A stretch of DNA of 50,759 nucleotides, taken from contig JAQVLN010000004.1 of NCBI GenBank assembly GCA_028704155.1, positions 1 to 50,759 of the forward strand. The letters run 5' to 3'. The DNA is from Desulfitobacteriaceae bacterium (GTDB lineage: Bacteria > Bacillota > Desulfitobacteriia > Desulfitobacteriales > Desulfitobacteriaceae). The notes below the pieces were generated by a model, which had not been told where the DNA came from, did not search any database, and saw nothing but the letters and a program-made list of their open reading frames with translations. Shown piece by piece: positions 23,578 through 37,470 of the stretch (positions are counted from its first letter, which is position 1; every line of letters begins with the position of its first letter). The translations under genes and the position numbers were made by a program.

Positions 23578-23949
23578 ATGAACTCAGGAGCATTATACCC
23601 TACTCCTGTCTTAAGAAGACCGGAATATATAACAAAAAATGTATCTTCCCGTTTATTCAACCATAGTTATCCCTTGAAATCAACTCTGATGAGCGGTTCC
23701 CAGGCAAATTATTCCTATGCTAACCGCTACTCTCTGCCGCAGCCGCTAATCCGGCAGCAGCTTCGGCCCTTAGTCCTGCAATCCCCGGCAAATCCCTATT
23801 TTCTTCAGCCTAATCCTTATCCGGTATATAATTTACCGGCCCAAATCAATTATACGCCTTCTGTATCTTCCAAAGGCCTTGAGATAATACTTGTAGCAAT
23901 TTTGATTTTAGTGGCTTTGGACCTGATTATCGTCCGTCCGCTTAAATGA
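23578..23949 (+). CDS. Hypothetical Pro/Tyr-rich protein with C-terminal membrane helix
   Basis: 123 residues, not recognised. Residues 1-95 are rich in Pro, Tyr, Asn, Ser and Leu (LPQPLIRQQLRPLV, NPYFLQPNPYPVYNLP). The end is one hydrophobic helix (GLEIILVAILILVALDLIIV) with a basic tail, as in a tail-anchored protein. The ATG at 23578 is nine bases from AAGGAG; the ATG at 23571 is too close to it. The last 42 bases overlap the convergent ATPase gene. A spore coat or membrane role is possible but only a guess. Confidence 0.6.
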   Translation: MNSGALYPTPVLRRPEYITKNVSSRLFNHSYPLKSTLMSGSQANYSYANRYSLPQPLIRQQLRPLVLQSPANPYFLQPNPYPVYNLPAQINYTPSVSSKGLEIILVAILILVALDLIIVRPLK

Positions 23950-26499
23950 ATTTATTTTTATTATCTTGACAATCTCATACCACATAACTGAAGCAAACGC
24001 TGTTCCTGCTGCCAGGAGAAATTGATTTACAGATAACGGTGCCAGCTTAACCAATTCAGCTATTGGGGTATATAAAATCATCATTAACCCAATTATTGTT
24101 CCTGAAAAGACACCCCACATTACTTTATCCCCGGCAAGCCTGACAAAGGATTTGACGGTAAGTTCGGAATTTGAACTGTTAACCTGGATGAGGAATAAAT
24201 TAGCCAGTACTATTATAGTGATACCCATTGCCCTGGCCAGAGAGGCATTATCGGGATACTGCTTTAGAAACATAAAATACATCCCGAACGAAGCAACAAA
24301 TATGATTAAGCCCTGGATTACGCTTTTGGAGAGAATTCCAAATGTCAGCAGCTTTTCCCGGGGATTACGCGGTGCCCGTTCCATAATATCCCGTTCTGCC
24401 GGCTGGCGTTCCAAGACGATGGAACAGGTAGGGTCAATTACCAATTCCAACAGTACCACATGCAGGGGGAGCAAAAGCAGGCTTCCCGGATCAATTCTTA
24501 ACAAGGGGGCAAGCAAGGCCGCAAAAACAATGGGAATATGAATCGTAAATACATAGCCGACTGCTTTTCTGATATTATCATAAATTCTTCTGCCATCCTT
24601 TACAGTATCCACGATGGTGGAAAAATTATCGTCCAAGAGGATTAAATCGGCAGCCTCCCGGGAAACCTCTGAACCCTGTTTACCCATAGCAATCCCAATA
24701 TCCGCATATTTAAGGGCGGGAGCATCGTTAACCCCATCACCGGTCATAGCGACTATTTCACCATTGTCCCGCAAAGCTTTGACTATCCTCATTTTATGTT
24801 CCGGTACAACCCTGGAGAAAATACTGACATCCCTGACCATTTCACGCAGTTTTTCAGCACTCATTTCGTTCAGCTGTTCACCGGTAATAACTTTATCACT
24901 GTTGGGCATATTGATTTGTTTGGCAATGGCAGCGGCCGTAATTCCGCTGTCACCTGTAATCATAACAACACGGATACCCGCCCTGGTACAGGTTTCAATA
25001 TCCTGTTTTATTGATTCCTTGGGCGGATCGGTCAAGCCCACCATACCGCAAAGCTCCAGATTGCAGTCGGTTAAGGTATCTGGAACCTGATTGCCGCCGG
25101 TGAGTTTCATTTGCCCGACTGCAATAACACGCAGTCCCCGACCGGACATTTCCGTTATTTTGTTTTCAACGGCTTTTTTTTCAGCGTCCGTCAATTCGCA
25201 GATAGTCAACATGTGCTCAGGTGAACCTTTGGCCGCAATAATAATGTCATCTTTATTTTTCCAAACATGTCCCATCATCTTTGTTTCATCAGTAAACGCG
25301 TATTCTTTGAACAATTCTCCGCCAAACAGCAAATCACGGGAAATCCCCTGGTTTTCACAATAGTGAATCATGGCCTTTTCCATTGGATCATAAGCGTCCG
25401 TTTCGCAGCCCATGCCCATAATTTGCAGCAAATTGCGGATATCATCGGTTATACTCCAGGTATCCCTGACAGTCATTCTATTTTCAGTTATAGTACCAGT
25501 TTTATCAACACAAAGAACAGACACCGCACCTAAGGTTTCCACTGAGGGCAGTTTTCGGACAAGGGTTTTTTTCTTGGCCAGCCTCCAGGCGCCCATTGAT
25601 AAAAATACCGTTAAAATAACCGGGAATTCCTCCGGGATCATGGCCATAGCCAGGGTAATTCCCCCCAGAATACTCTCGGTGACCCTGGCACCGAAAGGAT
25701 GATCAGGGATATTAAGATAAGTAACTATCCCGACAAGGACAAAAAACCCGGCTGCAATCTCGGCGCATAACCTTACTAATTTCCCAGTTTGCTTTTCCAG
25801 CGGCGTCGGTCGATCGGGAGCAGATATGATGTGGTGACCAATCTTGCCGTATTCAGTAGCCAAGCCGATTTTATCTACCAGGATACTTCCAGTGCCCTGG
25901 GTTACAAGTGTTCCGGCATAGCAATAATCATTGCGCCAATAATAAACGGTTTTCTCTTCCTTCGTGTTTCTTTTCTCAATAGTTTCAAGGTTTTCGTCAA
26001 CAGAAACTTTCCAGACACCTTCTGCTTCACCGGTCAGGGATGATTCGTCAAGACAGAGAGTGCTTGATTTCAAAACCAGGCCATCGGCAGGCACTTTAAC
26101 ACCTTCGGCAATAAACATGACATCCCCGGGAACTAAATCGACGCTTTCGATTGTTTTCTCAATACCGTCCCGCAGGACCTTGACATAAGGTGCAGACAGA
26201 TCCTTAAGAGCACTCAGGGTTTTATCTGTCTTCCATTCCTGGAATGTTTCGATACCTATAATACCAACCACAAAAATCAGCATAATTGCCCCATCTTTGG
26301 GCTCGCCCAGGATGAAATAAATAACTGAGGCAATGATCAGCAATAAAAACATCGGCTCACAAATAACCTTCAATATTTTACGAAATAAGCTGTCCTTTTT
26401 TTCTCTAACAAGTTTATTCCTGCCAAATTCAGCTTGCAGTTGTTGGGCTTGTGCTGTTGTTAGACCACCTTGAAGTCCTTCGATTTGTTGTTTTGTCAT
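23908..26499 (-). CDS. P-type cation-transporting ATPase, PEEFP subtype
   Basis: 863 residues from the ATG at 26499, eight bases after GGGAGG; the frame continues 10 codons upstream into the leader terminator. It has the N-terminal cation-ATPase domain, actuator TGEAE, membrane motif PEEFP (289-293, in place of the PEGLP of Ca2+ pumps), phosphorylation site D332 in DKTGTITENRM, and MTGDGVNDAPALKYADIGIAMG. The M6-like region is ELVIDPTCSIVLE with a cysteine. Databases usually call such proteins Ca2+ pumps. The metal riboswitch in its leader points instead to Fe2+, Co2+ or Ni2+ export. Confidence 0.92.
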   Translation of the reverse strand: MTKQQIEGLQGGLTTAQAQQLQAEFGRNKLVREKKDSLFRKILKVICEPMFLLLIIASVIYFILGEPKDGAIMLIFVVGIIGIETFQEWKTDKTLSALKDLSAPYVKVLRDGIEKTIESVDLVPGDVMFIAEGVKVPADGLVLKSSTLCLDESSLTGEAEGVWKVSVDENLETIEKRNTKEEKTVYYWRNDYCYAGTLVTQGTGSILVDKIGLATEYGKIGHHIISAPDRPTPLEKQTGKLVRLCAEIAAGFFVLVGIVTYLNIPDHPFGARVTESILGGITLAMAMIPEEFPVILTVFLSMGAWRLAKKKTLVRKLPSVETLGAVSVLCVDKTGTITENRMTVRDTWSITDDIRNLLQIMGMGCETDAYDPMEKAMIHYCENQGISRDLLFGGELFKEYAFTDETKMMGHVWKNKDDIIIAAKGSPEHMLTICELTDAEKKAVENKITEMSGRGLRVIAVGQMKLTGGNQVPDTLTDCNLELCGMVGLTDPPKESIKQDIETCTRAGIRVVMITGDSGITAAAIAKQINMPNSDKVITGEQLNEMSAEKLREMVRDVSIFSRVVPEHKMRIVKALRDNGEIVAMTGDGVNDAPALKYADIGIAMGKQGSEVSREAADLILLDDNFSTIVDTVKDGRRIYDNIRKAVGYVFTIHIPIVFAALLAPLLRIDPGSLLLLPLHVVLLELVIDPTCSIVLERQPAERDIMERAPRNPREKLLTFGILSKSVIQGLIIFVASFGMYFMFLKQYPDNASLARAMGITIIVLANLFLIQVNSSNSELTVKSFVRLAGDKVMWGVFSGTIIGLMMILYTPIAELVKLAPLSVNQFLLAAGTAFASVMWYEIVKIIKINSFKRTDDNQVQSH

Positions 26500-26518
26500 A
26501 AACAGTTCCCTCCCATAT

Positions 26519-26553
26519 AAAAAACCCATGGAACATTTTACTGTCCCACAGGT
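26519..26553 (-). terminator. Terminator overlapping the metal riboswitch
   Basis: Minus strand: ACCTGTGGGACA and TGTTCCATGGGT pair over 12 positions (G-U allowed) around GTAAAA, followed by six T. The left arm contains the 3' part of the aptamer (TGTGGGACAG), so aptamer and terminator are mutually exclusive. Ligand binding should therefore switch the gene on. Confidence 0.85.
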
Positions 26554-26628
26554 TTTTAATAATCCTGCTGCCTAATCAGGCCCGGCCCCACAAACCTCTG
26601 TCCAAGGTTCATCGCCTGCTCAGTTTAT
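26536..26628 (-). promoter_or_regulatory. NiCo (czcD) riboswitch
   Basis: Minus strand: ACTGAGCAGGCGATGAACC, GGACAGAGGTT, GGGGCCGGGCC, TAGGCAGCAGG and CCTGTGGGACAGT follow in order. They match the four-helix NiCo motif as I remember the published aptamer, with its CUGAGCAGGC, GCCGGGC, GCGGCAACAG and UGUGGGACAG. The short outer helix ACTG/CAGT is retained. Such aptamers bind Co2+/Ni2+, and Fe2+ has also been proposed as the ligand. The target is the P-type ATPase 40 bases downstream. Confidence 0.85.
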
Positions 26629-26797
26629 ACTTTTTACTTATGATTTTCAGTTAAATAATATTCAATAAAAAATAATTATTTTATTTTATCACCAAAAACA
26701 GGATTCTACAATTGCAGTTTCAACTCTAATATAGAGGATTGTCCCAAAGTTAACTAAAGTTTCATCTCATCATTGGTTTTGGATTTTTCTCAGTTTC

Positions 26798-27682
26798 TTA
26801 ATCAAAGGCTAAACCTAAATAACCATCATCCTTTAATACAATTTCAGGCTCGATTTCATCATTGGCCCTAATCATGCCCAGAGGACAGATAGTACTTTCG
26901 AGCTGTCTGCCCAGGAATACCGGCAGGCGTAAAATATATTCCTTTGCAGGTAATAAACAGGATATCTTTTTAACCGCTGTTGCGATGTATTCATCGTTAA
27001 CAAGAAGTTCTTTAATAATTACCTTGTCCGGATTTATTCTTTCCGCAACCGCACAACCATAAACCTCTCTGAATTCCAGGCCGTATATATCCGCCCCGGA
27101 TATCTGTGAAAGTTTTTTCTGATAAGTGATATCCAGATTATTATAAGAAACATAAGGCTTGACTCCAAGCAAATTATTTCTCCTCAGGTTATATTCTTCC
27201 GCAGAAACAGCTGAAATAATCCGGCCGCAGGTTTCTACAATATTCCAACTGTCAATTTTCTCCCCGGTCAGGATAGCTTCCCTGATATAGAAACCCTTCC
27301 GGTATCCCATCCTTTGATAAAACTTGAAAAGCTGCTTTCCTGCCGGGACAAGGAGGGTATAAACAATCCCGTTCTTGTGTAAATACCGGTGAGCAAAATC
27401 TATTAATAAACCGGCATATCCCATGTTCCGGTATTCGGGATGGGTTGCTATAGCATAGAGCATGACAGAATCATAGCTTCGCCCGGCTGCTTCAAGCCTG
27501 ACAGGCAGCATTGTCAGCATTGCCAGGATCTCGCCGTCCAGAAGCAGTAGGGCTGTTTCATCTTCCCTGTACCTGTTGGCATAATAGAAATCTATAAAAT
27601 TGCTACTGTCTCCAAAACAGAGGCTCCATAGAAACTTTTGTCGGTCTGTTTCACCTTTTTGGGCCAGTCTGAGCTCCAGCAT
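26798..27682 (-). CDS. GNAT family N-acetyltransferase
   Basis: 294 residues. The acetyl-CoA binding core is at about 65-130: LAMLTMLPVRL, MLYAIATHPEYRNMGYAGLLID and LVPAGKQLFKFYQRMGYRKGF, with the R/Q-x-x-G-x-G/A loop present as RNMGYA. The C-terminal half resembles the two-domain Eis-like/sterol-carrier group only weakly. Substrate unknown. It lies downstream of a DUF2156 gene on the same strand, 58 bases apart, and the two may act together. Confidence 0.85.
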   Translation of the reverse strand: MLELRLAQKGETDRQKFLWSLCFGDSSNFIDFYYANRYREDETALLLLDGEILAMLTMLPVRLEAAGRSYDSVMLYAIATHPEYRNMGYAGLLIDFAHRYLHKNGIVYTLLVPAGKQLFKFYQRMGYRKGFYIREAILTGEKIDSWNIVETCGRIISAVSAEEYNLRRNNLLGVKPYVSYNNLDITYQKKLSQISGADIYGLEFREVYGCAVAERINPDKVIIKELLVNDEYIATAVKKISCLLPAKEYILRLPVFLGRQLESTICPLGMIRANDEIEPEIVLKDDGYLGLAFD

Positions 27683-27740
27683 CTTAATTCCCGTGATCCT
27701 TTCTCTCCAGGTAAATTAAATATCAAAGCAGCCTGGGTTC

Positions 27741-28640
27741 CTAAAACAACTTGCCCAGATATTTTTGTTCCATTCTAACTGGATGATAAGATAGCTTAGC
27801 CTTTCTTAAGCCCTCGTTGCCCATATCCTCCTCCCGGTTGACATAAATAATTTCCGGATGATTCTCCCGGATATAAGCTGCAAATTCACGGTTAATCATT
27901 TGATAAGCACCCCGAATCTCTCCAAAGGCCTTTTCGATATGGATATCATAGGTTTCTGAATTAAGTCTGTCTCCCATCGTGTATGCAATAACTCTTTCTC
28001 CCGTACGAAGCAGACCTCCCTCCAGGCCAAGCTCTGCGTAATTCTCAAAACACCTTTTTACTGCACAGTTTTCGTTATCCAGAGATTCATCATTCTGACA
28101 GCAGTGTCTTTTACACCACTCGATGTTCATCTCCCAGCACTCCCCCAAATTTTCAGGAGAAATAAGCTCAAAACTCCAAACATTATTTTTTTTAAAACCG
28201 TTTATGTGGTTGCGTTTAGCCTGATATTTATTACCTGTCAAATGTACAAGGTTATCCAAAAGATAAACATAATCAAAACTGTCCCGCATCTCCATAAATT
28301 CAAAATCTTCCGGAAACAAACTATTCAGCACGGCAATATTCTCCGGCGACAACCCAATCAGGCTGAATTCACAGCCACCTTCTAAAGCGTCCCACCGCAT
28401 GGCCTCCAGAACTGATTTAAGATTACCCTGCCCTGCAGGAAACAAACATACCGGCACTATATCCGGCCTTTCCCCTTTTACAACCAGAAAATCTTCAAAC
28501 CGGGCCACATGATAATTATAAATAGTCGACCAAGCGAACAGATTGGTGAAATTATGCTGGCAGCCAGGCATATCTGCCGCAGCAAGTAAAGGATCTATCC
28601 ACTTTTTATCTTCTATCTCTATTCTTTTGAAATCGATCAT
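27741..28640 (-). CDS. DUF2156 (phosphatidylglycerol lysyltransferase-like) protein
   Basis: 299 residues. It has the DUF2156 double GNAT-like fold: HNFTNLFAWSTIYNYHVAR near the N-terminus, the linker YLLDNLVHLTGNKYQAKRNHINGF, and the C-terminal ETYDIHIEKAFGEIRGAYQMINREF followed by YVNREEDMGNEGLRKAKLSYHP. DUF2156 proteins relate to the catalytic domain of MprF. No membrane part is present here, so it is a soluble stand-alone acyl/aminoacyl-transferase-like protein. True substrate unknown. Confidence 0.85.
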   Translation of the reverse strand: MIDFKRIEIEDKKWIDPLLAAADMPGCQHNFTNLFAWSTIYNYHVARFEDFLVVKGERPDIVPVCLFPAGQGNLKSVLEAMRWDALEGGCEFSLIGLSPENIAVLNSLFPEDFEFMEMRDSFDYVYLLDNLVHLTGNKYQAKRNHINGFKKNNVWSFELISPENLGECWEMNIEWCKRHCCQNDESLDNENCAVKRCFENYAELGLEGGLLRTGERVIAYTMGDRLNSETYDIHIEKAFGEIRGAYQMINREFAAYIRENHPEIIYVNREEDMGNEGLRKAKLSYHPVRMEQKYLGKLF

Positions 28641-28898: not shown

Positions 28899-29894
28899 TT
28901 ACTTGTGCCCGGCCGCTTTGTTATCTTCCTCTTTGCCAATATTGCCGGACCATTTACCGCAGCGGTCTCCCCATTGGGCCAAAATCTCTTCATTCTGTTT
29001 AATCCGGATAATCTCACAATTATTGGCACATCCAGAACAATCAAAGCTTCCGGCCTGAAAACTGGATTCAGCCATTTCCAGCCCCCGGAAATGCGTTGGT
29101 TTCGCGGTCAACCCCACCTTTTCCTGGGCTAAATAAGCCGCTCCCAAAGCTCCCATTACCGAAAAATGTTCGGGTATAGTTATTTCCTGGCCTAATTCAT
29201 TTTCAAAAGCCCTGTGTATCCCGGGATTAGCCGCTACACCGCCCTGAAAAAGGATTGGACCCAGGATTCTTTTATTTTTACCAATATTATTTAGATAATT
29301 GCGGACCATAGCCTGGCAGAGTCCGGCAACAATATCAGGTAAAGAATGTCCCAGCTGCTGTTTGTGTATCATATCAGATTCAGCAAAAACCGAGCAGCGC
29401 CCAGCGATTCTAACAGGATTATCAGCTTTAACCGCCAGGGAAGCAAATTCTCCAATTGGCAGGCCCAGCCTTGCTGCCTGTTGATCCAGAAAGGAACCTG
29501 TACCGGCCGCACAAACTGTATTCATAGCAAAATCGACAACAATACCGTCCCTGAGAATAATTATTTTGGAATCCTGACCGCCGATTTCCAAAATAGTCCG
29601 GACTTGGGGATAAAGACGGGAGGCTGCAACAGCATGAGCAGTAATCTCATTTTTGATCACATCGGCACCCAGCAGGGTAGCTGCCAATTGGCGAGCACTG
29701 CCGGTTGTTCCTACTCCCATGATCTGAGCTTTGAGGCCAATCCTCGTTCTCAGCATCTTGATCCCTTTTTGAATTGCTTGCATCGGCTGACCCTTAGTGC
29801 GCAGGTATAAAGCCTCTTTTACCTTGTTATCTGCATCAATCAGGACCAAATTAGTACTGACTGAACCCACATCAGCACCTAAAAAGTACGACAT
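28899..29894 (-). CDS. BadF/BadG/HgdC-type ATPase (acyl-CoA dehydratase activase)
   Basis: 331 residues of the actin/hexokinase-fold activase family (COG1924 type), which uses ATP to fire electrons into a partner Fe-S protein. Motifs: GADVGSVSTNLVLID (phosphate 1), GVGTTGSAR, ILEIGGQDSKIIIL, the two cluster cysteines in NTVCAAGTGSFLD and GRCSVFAESDM, and LFQGGVAANPG. Known activators have about 260 residues. The extra C-terminus carries CSGCANNC and a further C in WGDRCG, a possible second metal site. Last gene of the trio with two DUF2229 proteins. Confidence 0.9.
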   Translation of the reverse strand: MSYFLGADVGSVSTNLVLIDADNKVKEALYLRTKGQPMQAIQKGIKMLRTRIGLKAQIMGVGTTGSARQLAATLLGADVIKNEITAHAVAASRLYPQVRTILEIGGQDSKIIILRDGIVVDFAMNTVCAAGTGSFLDQQAARLGLPIGEFASLAVKADNPVRIAGRCSVFAESDMIHKQQLGHSLPDIVAGLCQAMVRNYLNNIGKNKRILGPILFQGGVAANPGIHRAFENELGQEITIPEHFSVMGALGAAYLAQEKVGLTAKPTHFRGLEMAESSFQAGSFDCSGCANNCEIIRIKQNEEILAQWGDRCGKWSGNIGKEEDNKAAGHK

Positions 29895-29897
29895 AAT

Positions 29898-31046
29898 TTA
29901 ACACATCCTCTCCAGTGATACCAGCTCTTTCGGAACTTTCTTTCTTAGGCAGTTTGACCTCTCCAGGAGATCTACAAAAGCTTCCAAACGAGTTTGGATC
30001 CCTGCATTGCCGGTATGTTCATCAACTGTTAAGGTCATTACCGGAATATTGCAGGCTTCCTGGATGCGAGGCAAAATCCCGGCCGCGACAATTTCAGGCA
30101 TACAAGTCAAAGGTAAAATCTGAATAATTCCATCATACCCCTTTTGCGCAAACTTTACTGCTGAACCCACAGTTTCCTGACCATGGCCACCGACAAAATG
30201 GCCCAGATATGGTTTAGCCAGCCTGGGATAAGACTTCATGGAACGGTAACCCTTAGCCAAACCCTGAAAAACATGTTTTCCGACCCAGCCGGATAAATAG
30301 ATTGAACGGTCAACCTCCGCCCCTAAAAAACCCAACTGTTTTTCGATATCTGCCGATGAAAAAGGATCAAGAATTGTATAGATCTCACCGACAATGCCAA
30401 TCCGCAAAGGATCAGATCCAGATCCCGATTGATAATTCTGCACTGCTTGACGTTCGGCAATTTCCTGTTGAACAGAGCGGACAACTTCCTCCAACCCCCG
30501 GTAACTCGTTACAGAAACCAAACTAGCCAAAGCTTTTTGATAGAGCAATTCGGTTGCCGGCTTGTTTTCCAGCCTGGGGCGCGCAGCATGGATCAAATCT
30601 TCCACTCTGTCAATGGCTACACTTTTTTGATAAGCAAAATAGATTGTTTTCATAATCCGGCCCCAGGAATTATGGTTACCCGCTAAATAACGAATACGTT
30701 TCAGCAAGCCCGGAATACTGCCGTCAGGAGGCTCAAGAATCACTGCCTCGTAGGAATACCCGGCATCTTTCAGGATTTGTCTTTGCAGCTCACCATAGTA
30801 ACCAAAACGACAGGGCCCGATTCCACCGGTGATAGCAATGGTATCCGCACCTTCCTGAGCAGCTTCTATGTAATTTCCAAGATTAATCTTAAAAGGCAAA
30901 CAGGCTGATTCAGGTGAAATCTTGGTTCCCAGGTCGAGAGTTTTTTTACTTGTCAGCGGAGGAACAATGACCTCTACATTAAGCATTTCAAAAAGTGTCT
31001 TAATTATTATCCAAACATTTCCCATATGCGGAAAGGTTACTTTCAT
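29898..31046 (-). CDS. DUF2229 protein, activase partner (second)
   Basis: 382 residues. It contains conserved cysteines in SPESACLPFKINLG, GGIGPCRFGYYGEL and ILPLTCMPEIVA, and HFVGGHGQETVG and TVDEHTGNAGIQTRLEAF near the end. It belongs to the acyl-CoA dehydratase activase-related proteins, which in many clostridia are fused with the activase in one chain of about 1400 residues. AGGAGG precedes the ATG, and the first 47 bases overlap the previous gene. Probably an Fe-S protein that receives electrons from the activase; the reaction is unknown. Confidence 0.85.
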   Translation of the reverse strand: MKVTFPHMGNVWIIIKTLFEMLNVEVIVPPLTSKKTLDLGTKISPESACLPFKINLGNYIEAAQEGADTIAITGGIGPCRFGYYGELQRQILKDAGYSYEAVILEPPDGSIPGLLKRIRYLAGNHNSWGRIMKTIYFAYQKSVAIDRVEDLIHAARPRLENKPATELLYQKALASLVSVTSYRGLEEVVRSVQQEIAERQAVQNYQSGSGSDPLRIGIVGEIYTILDPFSSADIEKQLGFLGAEVDRSIYLSGWVGKHVFQGLAKGYRSMKSYPRLAKPYLGHFVGGHGQETVGSAVKFAQKGYDGIIQILPLTCMPEIVAAGILPRIQEACNIPVMTLTVDEHTGNAGIQTRLEAFVDLLERSNCLRKKVPKELVSLERMC

Positions 31047-32052
31047 TTTCTATCCTCCTGACGATCATGTCCACAAAAGCTTCAATTCTTGTTACCAAGC
31101 CTGCCTCCCCGCTATGTTCATCCAGGGTGATAACCATATAGGGTTTATGGGCCTTACGGGCTCTGCGGGCCAGCATATCCTGGGACACTGAATCCATCCC
31201 GCATCCGAAACAGGAAAGATAAATCACACCATCTACAGTCTCATCATCCACGTAGGAATAGCCTGCTCCCAGTATTTTCTTAGCCTGGCTCCAAAACATC
31301 TTTTTGCGTAATCCTTTCAGCGAGTTTTCAACAGCCTTCGTTTCTGTCTCTTCGATTAATTTAAGATCAACATTAGCCCTTAACTTATTCACTAAATCGA
31401 GATTAGCATACCTTTCATTGACCAGATAGGCATGACCAACCAGGGCAATCCCGGGACGGGGCTCCCGATTCTCACATACCTTATATTGATTAGTTTTTGC
31501 CAGTTTCAAGGAGGTCTCGCGGGGTAAGATTGTAAAACTTTTTTCACATAAATCCAAGCTTTCTTCAAAATCCTCGCCAGATCTTCTTAACTCCCCGTAC
31601 ATCGTCTGCCATTTCAGGGCTTCCTGAAAGGCATTGCGGATCATGGCCTTACCTTTTCCAAGTTTAAGCCCGAAAGCCTCCAATGCTTTTAGAACCTGGT
31701 TTTGGCCCTCCCGCCAATTTATTGTTACTGTAATAACAGGAATATCCCCGTCGACAGCAGCCGAAACACTCTCTGGAATGCCCAGAAACTTGGGACAAAG
31801 GTAGGTTTTCTCCTCAACACTGACCATACGCGGCAAAAAAATATAATCTACATCTTTCAGGCTGTTAATATGACCTGCCAATAGCTTTACCGGCAGGCAG
31901 GTTTCATCATGGGCCATTTTTAAACCAGACTCCATGATCCCCCGATGAGTTGGCTCTGAAGTAACAAGTTCAATATCCAGATTATAAAAAAAGCCTGCCC
32001 AAAAAGGGTAATAATCAAAATAATACAGGGCTCGCGGAAAACCTATTTTCAC
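31000..32052 (-). CDS. DUF2229 protein, activase partner (first)
   Basis: 350 residues: MKIGFPRALYYFDYYPFWAGFF is the DUF2229 start, followed by HDETCLPVKLLAGHI, FLPRMVS and YLCPKFLG, then IYLSCFGCGMDSVSQDM and VITLDEHSGEAGLVTRIEAFVD. The cysteines recur at positions like those of the second DUF2229 protein, and both share the closing DEHxGxAGxxTRxEAF block, so the two are paralogues. First gene of the three-gene operon; no 2-hydroxyacyl-CoA dehydratase gene is near. Confidence 0.85.
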   Translation of the reverse strand: MKIGFPRALYYFDYYPFWAGFFYNLDIELVTSEPTHRGIMESGLKMAHDETCLPVKLLAGHINSLKDVDYIFLPRMVSVEEKTYLCPKFLGIPESVSAAVDGDIPVITVTINWREGQNQVLKALEAFGLKLGKGKAMIRNAFQEALKWQTMYGELRRSGEDFEESLDLCEKSFTILPRETSLKLAKTNQYKVCENREPRPGIALVGHAYLVNERYANLDLVNKLRANVDLKLIEETETKAVENSLKGLRKKMFWSQAKKILGAGYSYVDDETVDGVIYLSCFGCGMDSVSQDMLARRARKAHKPYMVITLDEHSGEAGLVTRIEAFVDMIVRRIENESNLSAYGKCLDNN

Positions 32053-32175: not shown

Positions 32176-33666
32176 TCACTCCTTGCGTCCTTCAGGCTGC
32201 CTGATCCGGTCTTTAGGTTTCAGGATACTGGGACGCTTATTCTTGATCGGAACAGGCGAACGGACAAGAGTAGTCCCCAGAGCTTTGATATCCAAAGGAA
32301 TCAGCGGCCATAAATAAGGGACCCCAAAGGATTTTGTCTGCAAAAGCAACATAAACAGAAGGATCGTTCCGACCAGGAGCCCCCAGAAATTGAACAAGCC
32401 AGTTAATATTACCAGGAAAAGTCTTGCTAATCGGTTGGCTTGGGCTAATTCGTAACTAGGTGTGGCAAAAATGCCTACGGCAGAGAAAGCGACATACATA
32501 ACAATTTCCGGCGTAAACATGCCAACTTTGATAGCAATATCACCAATCATGAAGGTTGCAATCAAACCGAGTGCTGTCGCCAGGGGGATAGGAGTATGAA
32601 TTGCAGCCATACGCATCAGATCAACTCCGATTTCAGCAAAAATTGCTTGGGGCAAAAGCCCAATTTTCGCCGGATTGTTTAAGCCCACAAACTGAAGCCA
32701 GTCCGGCAGAAGCTGAGGATTAAGGGCTGCACCCAGCCAAACGGGCAACAAGAAGATTGAGCCAAAAATTCCGATGAACCTTATCCAACGCAGATAAGCC
32801 CCAACTACCGGTTCCTGGCGGTATTCTTCGGCATGCTGGACATGGGACCAGAAGGTTGACGGGGCAATAATGATACTGGGTGAAGTATCAACCATTACCA
32901 GGACATGTCCTTCCAGGAGATGAATAGCTGCCACATCAGGCCTTTCTGTATAACGGACCCGGGGATATGGGTTCCAGAACTTGCTGCCCAGGATAAATTC
33001 CTCAACACTTTTTTCCGCCATGGGAACTCCGTCAATCTTAATATCCTGGATGCCTTTCATGACTTCTTTTACCAGACCGGAATTTGTAATATCTTCAATA
33101 TAGGCTAGACAAACATCGGTTTTAGAACGGCTGCCAACCTGAACCAGTTTCATGCGTAATTTAGGGTCACGCAAGCGCCTGCGTATAAGCGCGGTATTAA
33201 TAACAAGTGTTTCAGTAAAACCATCCCGGGAACCACGGGTTACTCTTTCAATATCTGGTTCAGCCGGCTGCCGGGCGGGATACATCCTGACATCTACAAT
33301 TATAGCTTTATCCTGGCCATCAATAAAGATCGCCATCGGACCGGAAAGGATAAAGTAAAGGACCTTGTCCATAGTTTCCTCTTCGCTCACCTGCAGGTTG
33401 AGAATACGGCCTTTCTCCAGTTTTTCCAAAGCGTTAATCACCAGTTCCGGCCGTTCCAGGTCTACCAAAGCGTTCAGGATTAAACTGACGACATTGTTAT
33501 TAACCATGCCGATGACAGAATAGATTGCAACCTTTTTACCGCCAATGGACATTTCTCTGAGAACAATATCAAAACTGTCCGGAACTCCGAGTTGCTGATT
33601 TAGAAAATCTATATTTTCCTGATATTTCTTACTGACATGGATATTTTGTTCACTTGCAGCGTCCAT
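32176..33666 (-). CDS. spoVAF: Stage V sporulation protein AF (GerA-like)
   Basis: 496 residues. A GerA-type soluble N-terminal domain (SVIGMVNNNVVSLILNAL, SGPMAIFIDGQDKAIIVDVRMYPARQPAEPDIERVTRGSRDGF region) precedes five or six membrane helices. SpoVAF resembles the A subunits of germinant receptors and belongs to the spore inner membrane SpoVA set. It has a Lys/Arg/Pro-rich C-terminal tail. Last gene of the spoVAC-D-E-F operon. Confidence 0.93.
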   Translation of the reverse strand: MDAASEQNIHVSKKYQENIDFLNQQLGVPDSFDIVLREMSIGGKKVAIYSVIGMVNNNVVSLILNALVDLERPELVINALEKLEKGRILNLQVSEEETMDKVLYFILSGPMAIFIDGQDKAIIVDVRMYPARQPAEPDIERVTRGSRDGFTETLVINTALIRRRLRDPKLRMKLVQVGSRSKTDVCLAYIEDITNSGLVKEVMKGIQDIKIDGVPMAEKSVEEFILGSKFWNPYPRVRYTERPDVAAIHLLEGHVLVMVDTSPSIIIAPSTFWSHVQHAEEYRQEPVVGAYLRWIRFIGIFGSIFLLPVWLGAALNPQLLPDWLQFVGLNNPAKIGLLPQAIFAEIGVDLMRMAAIHTPIPLATALGLIATFMIGDIAIKVGMFTPEIVMYVAFSAVGIFATPSYELAQANRLARLFLVILTGLFNFWGLLVGTILLFMLLLQTKSFGVPYLWPLIPLDIKALGTTLVRSPVPIKNKRPSILKPKDRIRQPEGRKE

Positions 33667-33701: not shown

Positions 33702-34064
33702 CTACCCCTTAGGGTTAAACAATATGGCTACACCATACCCAAACAAAACAGCAGCGGCAATTCCAACGGCCGTTGCTTCCACCCCCCCAGAGAAAGCTCC
33801 GATCAAGCCTCGTTTGCCCACAGCTTCCATCGCCCCTTTAGCCAAGTTATAGCCAAAACCCGACAGAGGAACAGTTGCTCCGGCCCCAGCGATTTTAACC
33901 AAAGGCTGGTACCAGCCCAATGCTCCTAAAATTGCGCCCCCGGTAACAAAAGTTACCAGCACATGGGCCGGAGTAACCGATACTTTGGTTAAATCCATGA
34001 ATAATTGGCCGATTACACAAATTAAGCCACCGACAATAAAAGCAGGAATAATCATTTCGAACAT
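33702..34064 (-). CDS. spoVAE: Stage V sporulation protein AE
   Basis: 120 residues from the ATG at 34064 (MFEMIIPAFIVGGLICVIGQ), with GGAG eight bases ahead; a longer upstream start would add 12 unlikely residues. It has four membrane helices and the glycine-rich KIAGAGATVPLSGFGYNLAKG core. SpoVAE (the Eb type) is part of the channel that moves Ca-dipicolinate across the spore inner membrane. It shares its core with SpoVAC upstream, as in all spore formers. Confidence 0.95.
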   Translation of the reverse strand: MFEMIIPAFIVGGLICVIGQLFMDLTKVSVTPAHVLVTFVTGGAILGALGWYQPLVKIAGAGATVPLSGFGYNLAKGAMEAVGKRGLIGAFSGGVEATAVGIAAAVLFGYGVAILFNPKG

Positions 34065-34120
34065 TGCAGCAACTCCTTTCCAAGTGTCAATAACCGTCAT
34101 AATAATAAAAAATCATCTAT

Positions 34121-35128
34121 TCATGCTTCAATAACCACTGCGTGGCCAATCCCGGGAATTGACTGCCCCTGCAAAGCTGAGGTAGGGCTATGCAGGGAAC
34201 CGCTGCCCACCAATAATACGCGTTTCAGTTCACCGGATTTAAGCCTTTGTATAATGTCACCTGCCAGCACGACAGCCGAACAGGCACAACCACTGGCCCC
34301 GGCATGAACATCCTGGTCGGGATTATAAATCATTGTCCCGCAGTCAGTATACTCCCGGCCAATGTCGACCCCGCTTTGCCGCAAAACTTTGTGGGCTAAA
34401 GCCAGTCCATAGGTTCCCAGATCCCCGGAAATAATCAAATCATAATCCTTTGGCTTTCGATTGAGATCCTGAAAGTGATTAACCATAGTATCCGCAACCG
34501 CCGGAGCCATTGCCGCTCCCATATTGTTAACATCTTTTCCCCCATAATCCAGGACCCTGCCGATAGTAGCCGCCGTAATCCTGGGCCCGGAACCCTCCCG
34601 GGCCAGAACCAGGCTCCCTGCTCCGGTTACAGTCCACTGCGCACTCATAGCCCGTTGGCTGCCATGTTCAGTAGGCAAACGAAATTGCCTTTCGGCACTG
34701 TCATGATGACTTGATACACCCACCAGGATATTTTGGGCAAAGCCCCCGTCCAGGAACATGCTGCCGACGGCAATTCCCAAAGCCATCGTGGAACAGGCCC
34801 CATACAAGCCAATAAAGGGGAGAGCCAAAGCCCGGGCTGCGAAATTAGAAGCCATGATCTGATTCAATAAATCACCTGTCAGTATATAATCTATTTCTGC
34901 TTCCGGAATACCGGATTTATTCAGTGCTCCCTGCATAGCATTTTGCAACATTTTACTTTCAGCTAATTCCCAGGACTTCTCTCCGTTCAGACTATCTGTC
35001 CATACCAAATCGAACGTCTTGCCAAGCGGTCCCTTACCCTCCATAGGGCCAACTATAGAATATGAGGATAGTATAACCGGCTGATTGACATAGATTACAG
35101 TCTGATTGCCAACTTTTCTGGAATTCAT
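34121..35128 (-). CDS. spoVAD: Stage V sporulation protein AD
   Basis: About 335 residues; the ATG at 35128 (MNSRKVGN) is preferred because GAGG stands nine bases upstream, while the ATG at 35143 contains that site. It has a thiolase-like fold with LTGDLLNQIMASNF, LYGACSTMALGIAVG, GGFAQNILVGVSSHHDSAERQFR and GASGCACSAVVLAGD. SpoVAD binds dipicolinic acid and is the soluble subunit of the SpoVA channel. Confidence 0.95.
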   Translation of the reverse strand: MNSRKVGNQTVIYVNQPVILSSYSIVGPMEGKGPLGKTFDLVWTDSLNGEKSWELAESKMLQNAMQGALNKSGIPEAEIDYILTGDLLNQIMASNFAARALALPFIGLYGACSTMALGIAVGSMFLDGGFAQNILVGVSSHHDSAERQFRLPTEHGSQRAMSAQWTVTGAGSLVLAREGSGPRITAATIGRVLDYGGKDVNNMGAAMAPAVADTMVNHFQDLNRKPKDYDLIISGDLGTYGLALAHKVLRQSGVDIGREYTDCGTMIYNPDQDVHAGASGCACSAVVLAGDIIQRLKSGELKRVLLVGSGSLHSPTSALQGQSIPGIGHAVVIEA

Positions 35129-35208
35129 TTCATAATACCTCATTTTTTAAGTAATATTTTAGGTAAACTGCGTTCATTGAAGTACTGCAAGGTGCAAGAG
35201 GAATTTCC

Positions 35209-35685
35209 TTAATGTAACAGAAAGAAAATTAAACCGACAATGATTGATGTTACGATGCCATAAACCAGTACCGGACCGGCGATCTGGAAAAGACGAGCTC
35301 CAACACCTAAAACATATCCTTCCCGCTTGAATTCCAAAGCAGGAGCCACAATTGAATTGGCAAAACCGGTAATCGGAACTATAGAACCGGCACCGGCGAA
35401 CCGGGCAATATGGTCATATACACCCAGTCCGGTTAATAACGCTCCCAGGAAAATTAAGACTGCGCTTGTCGCGGCAGAAGCCTCCGGAAATGTTAAACCG
35501 CCAAGCCTGAATAAATTAATAATAATTTGACCAATCATGCAAATTAAACCGCCCACAAAAAACGCACGGATTGAATTTTTAACAACCGTTGGTTTAGGTG
35601 AAATTTGTTTGCTCAAAGCCTGATACTCCATGGGGCTTAAGCCGATTGTTGGCGGACGAAGAACTTTCTTAACCAGAATTCTCAC
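35209..35685 (-). CDS. spoVAC: Stage V sporulation protein AC
   Basis: Up to 158 residues. SpoVAC is a mechanosensitive-type membrane protein of the dipicolinate channel: AFFVGGLICMIGQIIINLFRL, AGAGSIVPITGFANSIVAPALEFKREG. The start is uncertain. GAGGGAG directly touches the GTG at 35685, a CTG eight bases beyond it has ideal spacing, and an ATG (MEYQALSKQ) occurs at 35631. First gene of the spoVA operon, which lacks spoVAA and spoVAB, the usual layout in clostridia. Confidence 0.93.
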   Translation of the reverse strand: MRILVKKVLRPPTIGLSPMEYQALSKQISPKPTVVKNSIRAFFVGGLICMIGQIIINLFRLGGLTFPEASAATSAVLIFLGALLTGLGVYDHIARFAGAGSIVPITGFANSIVAPALEFKREGYVLGVGARLFQIAGPVLVYGIVTSIIVGLIFFLLH

Positions 35686-35743
35686 TCCCTCAAAGTCACA
35701 ATCTTAAGTTATTAACCCTGTAACAGGTACAGAAATACCTTTA

Positions 35744-35773
35744 TAGTATGTTACCGGCACAGACCGTTTATAC
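35744..35773 (-). promoter_or_regulatory. Sigma-G type promoter of the spoVA operon
   Basis: Minus strand: GTATA (35769-35773), 18-base spacer, CATACTA (35744-35750). This fits the sigma-G consensus GHATR-N18-CATWHTA exactly. It lies about 60 bases before spoVAC, and spoVA is a known forespore sigma-G operon. Confidence 0.8.
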
Positions 35774-35823
35774 TTGTCCTCAATAAATTGCCTTAAATGA
35801 CCCGGTTATAATTTATTATCGGC

Positions 35824-35848
35824 AGGAAATTTATGGATGACGTCGAAT
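35824..35848 (+). promoter_or_regulatory. Sigma-H type promoter of the spoIIA operon
   Basis: Plus strand: AGGAAAT (35824-35830), an 11-base spacer, GTCGAAT (35842-35848), matching sigma-H consensus RNAGGAWWW/RNNGAAT. It lies about 40 bases before spoIIAA. Bacillus spoIIA is driven by sigma-H with Spo0A. No clear Spo0A box was pinned down. Confidence 0.75.
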
Positions 35849-35888
35849 TTATCCTTTAGAAAAGGCTTAGAGGAGAGTGGCTAAATCG

Positions 35889-36227
35889 ATGGAAAAAGTA
35901 ATTAAGCGACAGACAATGTTCCTGCGCTTAGACGGAGAGCTTGATATGCAAACTGCAGATTCAGTCAGGACAACAATAGACACAGAAATAGATAGACGCG
36001 GTGTCCGAACGGTTATCATAAATCTGCAAAAAGTAGAGTTCATAGACAGTTCCGGACTTGGTGTCCTACTGGGGCGTTACAAAAAACTTCGGGATCTGGA
36101 GGGAAAGCTCAAAATCACCAATGTTCCCCCGCATATTCTCAAAATTATGGAATTATCAGGATTACCTAAAATAATTCACTTCTACAATGATGAAGAATCA
36201 GCCTATGATGAAGGAAGGGGAGCATAA
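35889..36227 (+). CDS. spoIIAA: Anti-sigma factor antagonist SpoIIAA
   Basis: 112 residues of the STAS fold from the ATG at 35889. A GTG at 35877 is in frame but touches the ribosome site AGGAG, while the ATG is 13 bases away, so the start is not settled. The phospho-acceptor is the second serine of FIDSSGLGVLLGRYK (about S55). Dephosphorylated SpoIIAA binds SpoIIAB and frees sigma-F in the forespore. First gene of spoIIAA-spoIIAB-sigF. Confidence 0.95.
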   Translation: MEKVIKRQTMFLRLDGELDMQTADSVRTTIDTEIDRRGVRTVIINLQKVEFIDSSGLGVLLGRYKKLRDLEGKLKITNVPPHILKIMELSGLPKIIHFYNDEESAYDEGRGA

Positions 36228-36228
36228 G

Positions 36229-36666
36229 ATGACTAAAAATTTTGTTAAACTTGTTTTTTCCAGTTTGCCTGAAAACGTCAGTTCAGCCAGGTTGCTTGTT
36301 GCCTCAGTCGGTTCCCAGCTTGACCTTTCTCTTAACGATCTTGAAGAAATAAAAGTAGCTGTTTCTGAGGCCGTATCCAATGCAATTATTCACGGTTATA
36401 ACAATGCACCGGATAATTTTGTTCATCTTGAAATGGAAATCACCCTGAATCAACTTAAAGTTTTAGTAATTGACCAAGGATGTGGGATTCCCGATGTTAA
36501 ACAAGCTATGCAGCCGGCCTTCAGCACCGATCCTGAACGAATGGGCCTGGGGTTTGTCTTTATGCAATCTTTTATGGATGAACTTAGAGTAACCTCGGAA
36601 ATAAACAAAGGCACGACCGTAACAATGGTCAAATATTTAAGTCCGACCGCACCCTCCTCGCATTAG
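36229..36666 (+). CDS. spoIIAB: Anti-sigma-F factor SpoIIAB
   Basis: 145 residues from the ATG at 36229, directly after the spoIIAA stop (TAAGATG) and behind GGAAGGGGAG; a longer frame starting at 36187 lies within spoIIAA. It is a GHKL serine kinase: N-box EAVSNAIIHGYNN, G1 LVIDQGCGIPD, G2 ERMGLGFVFMQSFMD. It holds sigma-F inactive and phosphorylates SpoIIAA. Confidence 0.96.
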   Translation: MTKNFVKLVFSSLPENVSSARLLVASVGSQLDLSLNDLEEIKVAVSEAVSNAIIHGYNNAPDNFVHLEMEITLNQLKVLVIDQGCGIPDVKQAMQPAFSTDPERMGLGFVFMQSFMDELRVTSEINKGTTVTMVKYLSPTAPSSH

Positions 36667-36678
36667 GGAGGTAGTTTT

Positions 36679-37470
36679 ATGATTCAACGTTTAACTGAAA
36701 TGAATCTTCCGCGTTTTCCGCTTCTCCCTGATAAAGAAATCAAGGAATTGCTGCATAAGGCCCAGGAAGGGGATGCTGCAGCCCGTGAAAAGCTAATTAA
36801 CTGCAACCTGAAACTAATTTTTAATCTTGTCCAGCGTTTCAGCCATCGCGGGTATGAAATTGAAGACCTTTTCCAAATCGGGACAATCGGCCTGATCAAA
36901 GCAATAGATAAATTTGACTTTTCCTTCGATGTTAAATTTTCTACTTATGCCGTACCTATGATTATCGGCGAAATCAGAAGATTCCTAAGGGATGACCACC
37001 CTATCAAAGTCCCCCGTTCCTATAAGGAGATGATCTATAAAATAAATCGTTCCCGCGAACATCTCACCGCTGTCCTGGGCCATGAACCGACCATCGGGGA
37101 AATTGCTGCCGATATTGGGGTTAACCGGGAAGATATAGTAACGGCAATCGAGGCCATGCAAAGCCCGACTTCTATTCATGATACCCTTTACCAGGATGAT
37201 TCAGACCCGATCTTCGTTCTTGATCAACTACATCTGGAGAAAGATCCGGAACCTGCCTGGTTTGAAAAAATAGCCTTAAAAGAAGTATTTGAAAAACTGC
37301 CCGACCGTGAAAAACGGGTACTTTTAATGAGGTTTTATGAAGATAAAACCCAAAGTGAAATTGCCCGGCTGCTTAATCTGTCTCAGGTCCAGATTTCCAG
37401 GATTGAACGATCGGCCCTGCATCATATCAGGGAATTTCTTAAAGCTGATGAAATAAACAAAAAAACATAA
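36679..37470 (+). CDS. sigF: RNA polymerase sigma-F factor
   Basis: 263 residues. Region 2 (LIFNLVQRFSHRGYEIEDLFQIGTIGLIKAIDKFD, then FSTYAVPMIIGEIRRFLRDD), region 3 (GHEPTIGEIAADIGVN) and region 4 (LPDREKRVLLMRFYEDKTQSEIA with the helix-turn-helix SQVQISRIER) are present. GGGAGG precedes the ATG by eight bases. It is the first forespore-specific sigma factor and ends the spoIIA operon. Confidence 0.97.
   Translation: MIQRLTEMNLPRFPLLPDKEIKELLHKAQEGDAAAREKLINCNLKLIFNLVQRFSHRGYEIEDLFQIGTIGLIKAIDKFDFSFDVKFSTYAVPMIIGEIRRFLRDDHPIKVPRSYKEMIYKINRSREHLTAVLGHEPTIGEIAADIGVNREDIVTAIEAMQSPTSIHDTLYQDDSDPIFVLDQLHLEKDPEPAWFEKIALKEVFEKLPDREKRVLLMRFYEDKTQSEIARLLNLSQVQISRIERSALHHIREFLKADEINKKT

Follow-up and report, generated by a model that had tools for sequence, protein, structure and literature searches.

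The window analysed here is a 50,759-nucleotide stretch of a Desulfitobacteriaceae genome (assembly GCA_028704155.1, contig JAQVLN010000004.1), and the system in question is a set of three minus-strand genes within it, named C, B and A in their order on that strand (Table 1). A encodes a BadF/HgdC-type ATPase, or archerase, and matches the Pfam family PF01869 (BadF/BadG/BcrA/BcrD ATPases) at 5e-46. C matches the DUF2229 domain PF09989 (9e-47) and, in its C-terminal part, the HGD-D domain PF06050 (6e-8, over the cut-off), and B gives the same pair of matches at 6e-10 for PF09989 and 3e-6, just under the cut-off, for the C-terminal HGD-D domain; profile comparison finds the two proteins homologous, i.e. 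paralogues (hhalign 99.9%). Judged by its anatomy, with a 47-bp overlap between C and B and 3 bp between B and A, the set is one transcription unit, and clear Shine-Dalgarno sequences stand ahead of both B and A. An earlier note on this DNA had proposed just such an ATPase with two paralogous DUF2229 proteins at 28899-32052, and the three open reading frames (ORFs), the Pfam matches and the profile comparison bear it out. Its remark that no dehydratase or benzoyl-coenzyme A (CoA) reductase lies nearby also holds for the window, which has no HGD-D gene other than the set's own; true HGD-D genes are found on other contigs of the genome, and two of these contigs (C124 and C179) have activases as well. 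At these loci (L019/L021) the HGD-D gene pair of C124 has two ordinary activases, like a class I benzoyl-CoA reductase, and that of C179 has one.

Two things were absent from the earlier note, namely a second C-B-A set on another contig of the same genome (C89) and the spoVA/sigF cluster directly upstream of C, and this sporulation neighbourhood is the main clue to the set's function. There is no terminator-like site on the minus strand between spoVAF and C, and the match to the sigma-F/G consensus ahead of spoVAC is likely, as far as a consensus match can tell, the promoter of a transcription unit that runs from spoVA through C, B and A in this genome. The spoIIAA-spoIIAB-sigF genes are inverted relative to spoVA and dacF here (35209-37470) and likewise in Desulfosporosinus; in most other genera they are colinear.

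Table 1. The C-B-A set and neighbouring features in the window
Feature	Position	Strand	Remark
Gene C (first of the set), DUF2229/COG3580-like subunit, 350 amino acids	31000..32052	-	GTG start
Gene B, paralogous DUF2229/HGD-D-like subunit, 382 amino acids	29898..31046	-	
Gene A, BadF/HgdC-type ATPase (archerase), 331 amino acids	28899..29894	-	
spoVAF (GerA/SpoVAF family)	32176..33666	-	123 bp upstream of C
spoVAE	33702..34100	-	NCBIfam TIGR02839 over cut-off
spoVAD	34121..35143	-	NCBIfam TIGR02845 over cut-off
spoVAC	35209..35685	-	NCBIfam TIGR02838 over cut-off
Sigma-F/G-type promoter match before spoVAC, GTATA-N18-CATACTA	35744..35773	-	11/11 consensus positions; consensus match only
spoIIAA-spoIIAB-sigF operon	35877..37470	+	Divergent from spoVA; NCBIfam equivalogs
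P-type cation ATPase, Ca2+-type by sequence	23908..26529		
GNAT-like protein	26798..27682		
Protein without assignment	27741..28640		

Cysteines, fold and known relatives

The cysteines of the bridging cluster in A (C128 and C167) are invariant in 25 of 25 unfused and 30 of 30 fused sequences. The extra C-terminal CxxCxxxC plus C element that the earlier note had remarked on is real (C286, C289, C293 and C312): it is invariant in the 25 unfused homologues, which represent both paralogue classes described below (S and N), is seen in 29-30 of the 30 fused chains and is not present in the three other activases of the same genome that were examined. B and C have three invariant cysteines each (C49, C79 and C315 in B; C52, C86 and C284 in C), in agreement with the claim that both partners keep CLP-type cysteines, and every cysteine on which that note had staked its proposal is thus conserved across the family. 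The DEHxGxAGxxTRxEAF block that it had singled out is shared by B and C but is a form (DEH..G.AG..TR.EAF) of the C-terminal motif found across the HGD-D superfamily rather than a private signature. By mean column identity A is more conserved than B or C.

The spacing of the cysteines in B and C agrees with the three-cysteine [4Fe-4S] site of BzdO (Cys95/128/380; PMC11971306), and the clusters of HgdAB are also of the [4Fe-4S] type with three cysteines each (PMC8473912). The double cubane of BzdN is bound by six cysteines (PMC11971306), and a double-cubane identity for C-B is ruled out by cysteine number, since B and C have only three invariant ones each. In BzdO the catalytic His131 stands three residues after the second cluster cysteine, Cys128 (PMC11971306); the corresponding CxxH is absent from the set, B reading C79-R-F-G and C reading C86-P-K-F. 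A selenoprotein version of B was considered and rejected, as the in-frame TGA flagged in several B matches of the window's family is the normal C-terminal stop in four of five loci examined, and the fifth may be a degraded copy.

The AlphaFold model of C (predicted local distance difference test, pLDDT, 84) matches DCCP, HadC and MbdON in Foldseek at E about 1e-7, with DCCP on top, and that of B (pLDDT 86) matches HadC (6e-10), DCCP and BzdN. Because DCCP, HadBC, BzdNO and MbdON, substrate-bound structures of the HadBC/BzdNO fold included, are the only convincing matches for the two models, sequence and predicted structure together clearly point to a place for C-B-A in the archerase-driven BCR/HAD/DCCP superfamily of ATP-dependent iron-sulfur (Fe-S) reductases. 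In HgdC-type activators, ATP hydrolysis drives the injection of electrons into three-cysteine [4Fe-4S] clusters (PMC8473912), and we infer by analogy that A would do the same for clusters in C-B. Of the two analogies drawn in the earlier note, the one with ATP-driven Fe-S electron transfer of the HgdC/HGD-D type therefore stands, and the one with double-cubane proteins is weak for want of six cysteines.

Each of the known systems shares part of this design. The 2-hydroxyacyl-CoA dehydratases with their activators (HgdC-HgdAB and HadI-HadBC; PDB 3o3m/3o3n, 1hux and 4eht) have in common with C-B-A the ASKHA ATPase with two bridging-cluster cysteines and a paralogous heterodimer of the same fold with three cluster cysteines per subunit, whereas C-B-A is not accompanied by dehydratase pathway genes (its neighbours are spoVA, lysA, a trpB-like gene and others) and has a DUF2229 N-terminal region, the extra four-cysteine site in A and the linkage to spoVA. 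Class I benzoyl-CoA reductases (BzdNOPQ and MbdONPQ; PDB 8s02 and 9gai) share the fold of the reductase subunits, and A is closest by sequence to MbdQ (1e-38), but the six-cysteine double cubane of BzdN and the CxxH of BzdO are missing from C-B, and these enzymes have two kinds of activase subunit where C-B-A has one. The nearest functional analogy is DCCP with DCCP-R (PDB 6eno and 7yyl), a reductase and archerase outside CoA chemistry, from which C-B differs in being a paralogous pair and in having three cysteines per subunit instead of six. The NCBIfam dehydratase and reductase equivalogs give the set 11-20 bits against cut-offs of 350-700, and the DCCP model NF040772 gives 20.7 bits against a cut-off of 350. 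Membership of the dehydratase, benzoyl-CoA reductase and double-cubane families each fails on the features tested, and C-B-A is a previously undescribed variant of archerase-driven Fe-S reductases.

Paralogue classes, spore genes and forespore-type promoters

The tree of B falls into two deep clades, S and N (SH-like approximate likelihood ratio test, SH-aLRT, 99). The S clade has 59 rows, the window's B among them, of which 43 come from loci scored as adjoining spoVA; the N clade has 25 rows, none adjoining spoVA, and includes B of the second set on C89. On the evidence of this tree, S and N are two ancient paralogue classes and the set in the window belongs to the spoVA-linked class S. The tree of A does not separate the two cleanly (nine label changes) and, because it mixes S and N labels, was not used to classify sets. 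The same three parts, with the same cysteines, make up the S-type sets, the N-type sets and fused A'-A-C-B chains of about 1430 amino acids (COG1924/COG3580/COG3581, 'acyl-CoA dehydratase activase-related'), so that the fused versions expected in the earlier note do exist. N-type and fused forms differ from the S-type in having no link to sporulation genes, and the fused form occurs in many genomes, those of non-spore-formers included.

Among 81 C-B-A loci examined in genomes of the phylum, the S-type alone follows a rule of gene order, dacF-spoIIAA-spoIIAB-sigF-spoVAC-AD-AE-AF-[C-B-A]-(trpB-like)-lysA, with the set usually directly downstream of spoVA and with trpS and scpAB, as well as lysA, sharing the neighbourhood. 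This conservation makes the description of the set as 'stand-alone' misleading in the earlier note, which had itself advised collecting gene neighbours across genomes; the S-type set is linked to spoVA. The named S loci, from Desulfosporosinus, Desulfofundulus, Pelotomaculum, Moorella, Syntrophomonas, Natroniella, Orenia, Halonatronum and others, contain spoVA genes in 62 of 80 cases, and many of the other 18 end at contig ends. Of 74 loci, 11 have spoVA and C overlapping and 24, these 11 included, have them no more than 30 bp apart, in a count that samples some genomes twice and uses approximate ORF starts. In 66 of the first 98 genomes with an S-type set, spoVAD lies within 12 kb upstream of it and in the same orientation.

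The neighbours of N-type sets vary; examples are selA-selB, dus, argS and formate-dehydrogenase/NuoF-like genes. A link to selenium genes was rejected as a rule, since selA-selB stands ahead of N-type sets in three loci only. At four loci (L098, L100, L105 and L115) the N-type set lies directly behind NuoF-like and NuoG/formate-dehydrogenase-like genes (583 and about 1200 amino acids), which suggests a possible electron source for A. The N-type set of the window's own genome (L018:2590-5661, G000:C89) lies downstream of an EF-G-like gene (324-2348).

To compare the classes with spore formation, we assigned B in 150 genomes of the phylum to the S-type or the N-type by its scores against alignments A1 and A2 and related the outcome to the presence of spoVAD. 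We found a clear S-type B in 99 genomes, all of which have spoVAD (99 of 132 spoVAD-positive genomes), and in none of the 18 spoVAD-negative genomes (p=3.5e-10). Counted by family, S-type B is present in 49 of 68 families with spoVAD and in 0 of 11 without (p=6e-6). None of the eight aerobic spore formers, recognized by an A-type cytochrome oxidase, has it. Within the family of the window, a full S-type B is present in 33 of 38 genomes, and another two have fragments of it on the contig with spoVAD; the only other genome of the window's genus (G183, 92% complete) is without spoVAD and without S-type B.

Promoters were scored in the 160 bp upstream of genes, with near-identical sequences removed, against a sigma-F/G consensus (GHATR, 17-18 nt, CATNHTA) fixed in advance after the forespore promoters of Bacillus, at a threshold of at least 10 of 11 positions. 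Such matches precede 21 of 84 S-type C genes and 39 of 663 other genes of the same loci (p=2.6e-7), with 4 of 84 in the reverse-strand control upstream of S-type C and 3 of 19 before N-type C. Where the gap upstream of S-type C is at least 40 bp the count is 19 of 56, and where its upstream neighbour is not spoVA it is 7 of 27. The positive controls spoVAC (10/38) and dacF (14/63) were recovered in similar proportions, and there was no enrichment before lysA (1/45), trpS (3/39) or scpA (0/32). In C. difficile the spoVA operon depends on sigma-G (PMC3789822), and recognition by sigma-F and sigma-G overlaps (PMC7438776). Forespore expression of C-B-A under sigma-F/G is predicted because of this dependence of spoVA, the linkage to spoVA and the enrichment of consensus promoters.

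A possible role in anaerobic spores

At least six genomes (G085, G048, G012, G090, G116 and G143) have an S-type C-B pair at spoVA without an adjacent A, in a count limited to genomes whose one strong A is at another place, and in all six that A lies within or beside the N-type operon. Two further candidates (G004 and G095) were rejected, as A adjoins B there and had been missed by ORF calling. Because the genomes with A-less pairs hold a single A elsewhere, one ATPase A probably serves different C-B pairs, and a parallel may be drawn with nitrogenase systems, in which NifH serves more than one partner.

We believe that the S-type C-B-A genes are probably a forespore gene set of anaerobic Bacillota that takes part in making or waking spores. 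More specifically, we favor, with reasonable though far from full confidence, the reading that they encode a low-potential, archerase-type reductase driven by ATP, expressed in the forespore and devoted to anaerobic spore formation. In such a system A would be a dimeric ATPase whose two chains hold a [4Fe-4S] cluster between them through C128 and C167 and would pass single electrons to three-cysteine [4Fe-4S] clusters in a C-B heterodimer, and reduced C-B would then reduce an acceptor, for which we propose no substrate, as the data give no pointer to one. In the C-terminal four-cysteine site of A there is probably another cluster, one that feeds A or serves in its docking; the alternative is zinc. 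The set behind spoVA would be made in the forespore under sigma-F/G and be active in the developing or germinating spore.

Several observations weigh against this reading. The window has no forespore-type promoter directly before C, so expression of C there would need read-through from spoVA. A clear S-type is missing from 33 of the 132 spoVAD-positive genomes (eight aerobes, and several others with the fused form only or unassigned), and the system therefore cannot be a requirement for all anaerobic spores. N-type B, too, shows some enrichment in genomes with spoVAD (57/59, p=0.009), the 18 spoVAD-negative genomes make a small sample, and related genomes do not count as independent observations. 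Moreover, the sister class N stands outside any sporulation context and the fused form is retained in non-spore-formers, which implies that the basic function is not spore-specific. A literature search gave no expression, knockout or biochemical data for any member, nor a published function for DUF2229, COG3580 or COG3581 proteins, with most subscription papers outside its reach.

Some of the same facts would fit a general housekeeping system of anaerobes for ATP-driven Fe-S reduction or repair, whose place behind spoVA is inherited synteny: DUF2229 is found in 140 of the 150 genomes, including non-spore-formers with the fused form, the N-type neighbours are varied, and lysA, trpS and scpA share the S-type neighbourhood yet are not sporulation genes. 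We consider this unlikely, if still worth keeping in mind, given that S-type B is absent from all 18 genomes without spoVAD, that forespore-type promoters are enriched before S-type C and not before those three genes, that they also occur at S loci with another upstream neighbour than spoVA, and that the S/N split is deep. Among control genomes, DUF2229 occurs in Thermus composti, Deinobacterium chartae and Lactococcus lactis, which are aerobes or aerotolerant, and in Thermotoga maritima; its presence in aerobes and aerotolerant bacteria is odd for a very low-potential electron system.

The low equivalog scores, the lack of the CxxH to which BzdO owes its catalytic His (B has CRFG and C has CPKF) and the absence of acyl-CoA pathway genes beside the set in the contexts examined make it quite improbable that C-B is a true 2-hydroxyacyl-CoA dehydratase or reductase for a single acyl-CoA in spore metabolism with A as its activator, even with a fold shared with HadBC and BzdNO, substrate-bound structures included, and a Pfam name that makes DUF2229 a CoA enzyme activase domain. 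We give still less credence to a non-redox or cluster-handling role, in which C-B would build, repair or insert Fe-S or other metal clusters or carry out TudS-like sulfur chemistry and A would supply an ATP-driven conformational change. A service function of this kind would suit the very wide distribution and the sharing of one A by several C-B pairs, and the 4-thiouridine desulfidase, as part of the BCR/HAD superfamily, is reported as a partial relative (PMC11971306), but A keeps both bridging cysteines of the electron-donating archerases and looks built for electron transfer, and no Isc/Suf neighbours were seen.

The favored reading of a forespore reductase has a bolder form, to which we give somewhat less than even chances. 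In it, anaerobic endospores would have an ATP-powered, nitrogenase-like electron pump of their own, regulated together with the dipicolinate channel and absent from Bacillus, which sets or restores a very low redox state for spore maturation or for the restart of oxygen-sensitive metabolism at germination, with one archerase able to serve at least two different C-B reductases per cell. If true, the pump would be a chemistry specific to the spore compartment and so far unrecognized. DUF2229 is present in nearly all genomes of the phylum yet has no assigned function, and the placement of class S at spoVA is a first concrete handle on it; it suggests that anaerobic spores may depend on ATP-driven low-potential electron chemistry that is missing from the aerobic Bacillus model.

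In the window, the genes at 23908-28640 separate C-B-A from the conserved CCA/trpS/scpA block and were not seen as conserved neighbours elsewhere. A third, divergent C-B-A type (L213-L216; A at 420-429 bits and B at about 290 bits against the S profile) occurs in some genomes of the window's family. Three other loci (L091, L095 and L063) have the order C-B-A-B, with a second, divergent B behind A, an arrangement that looks like the beginnings of another reductase pair.

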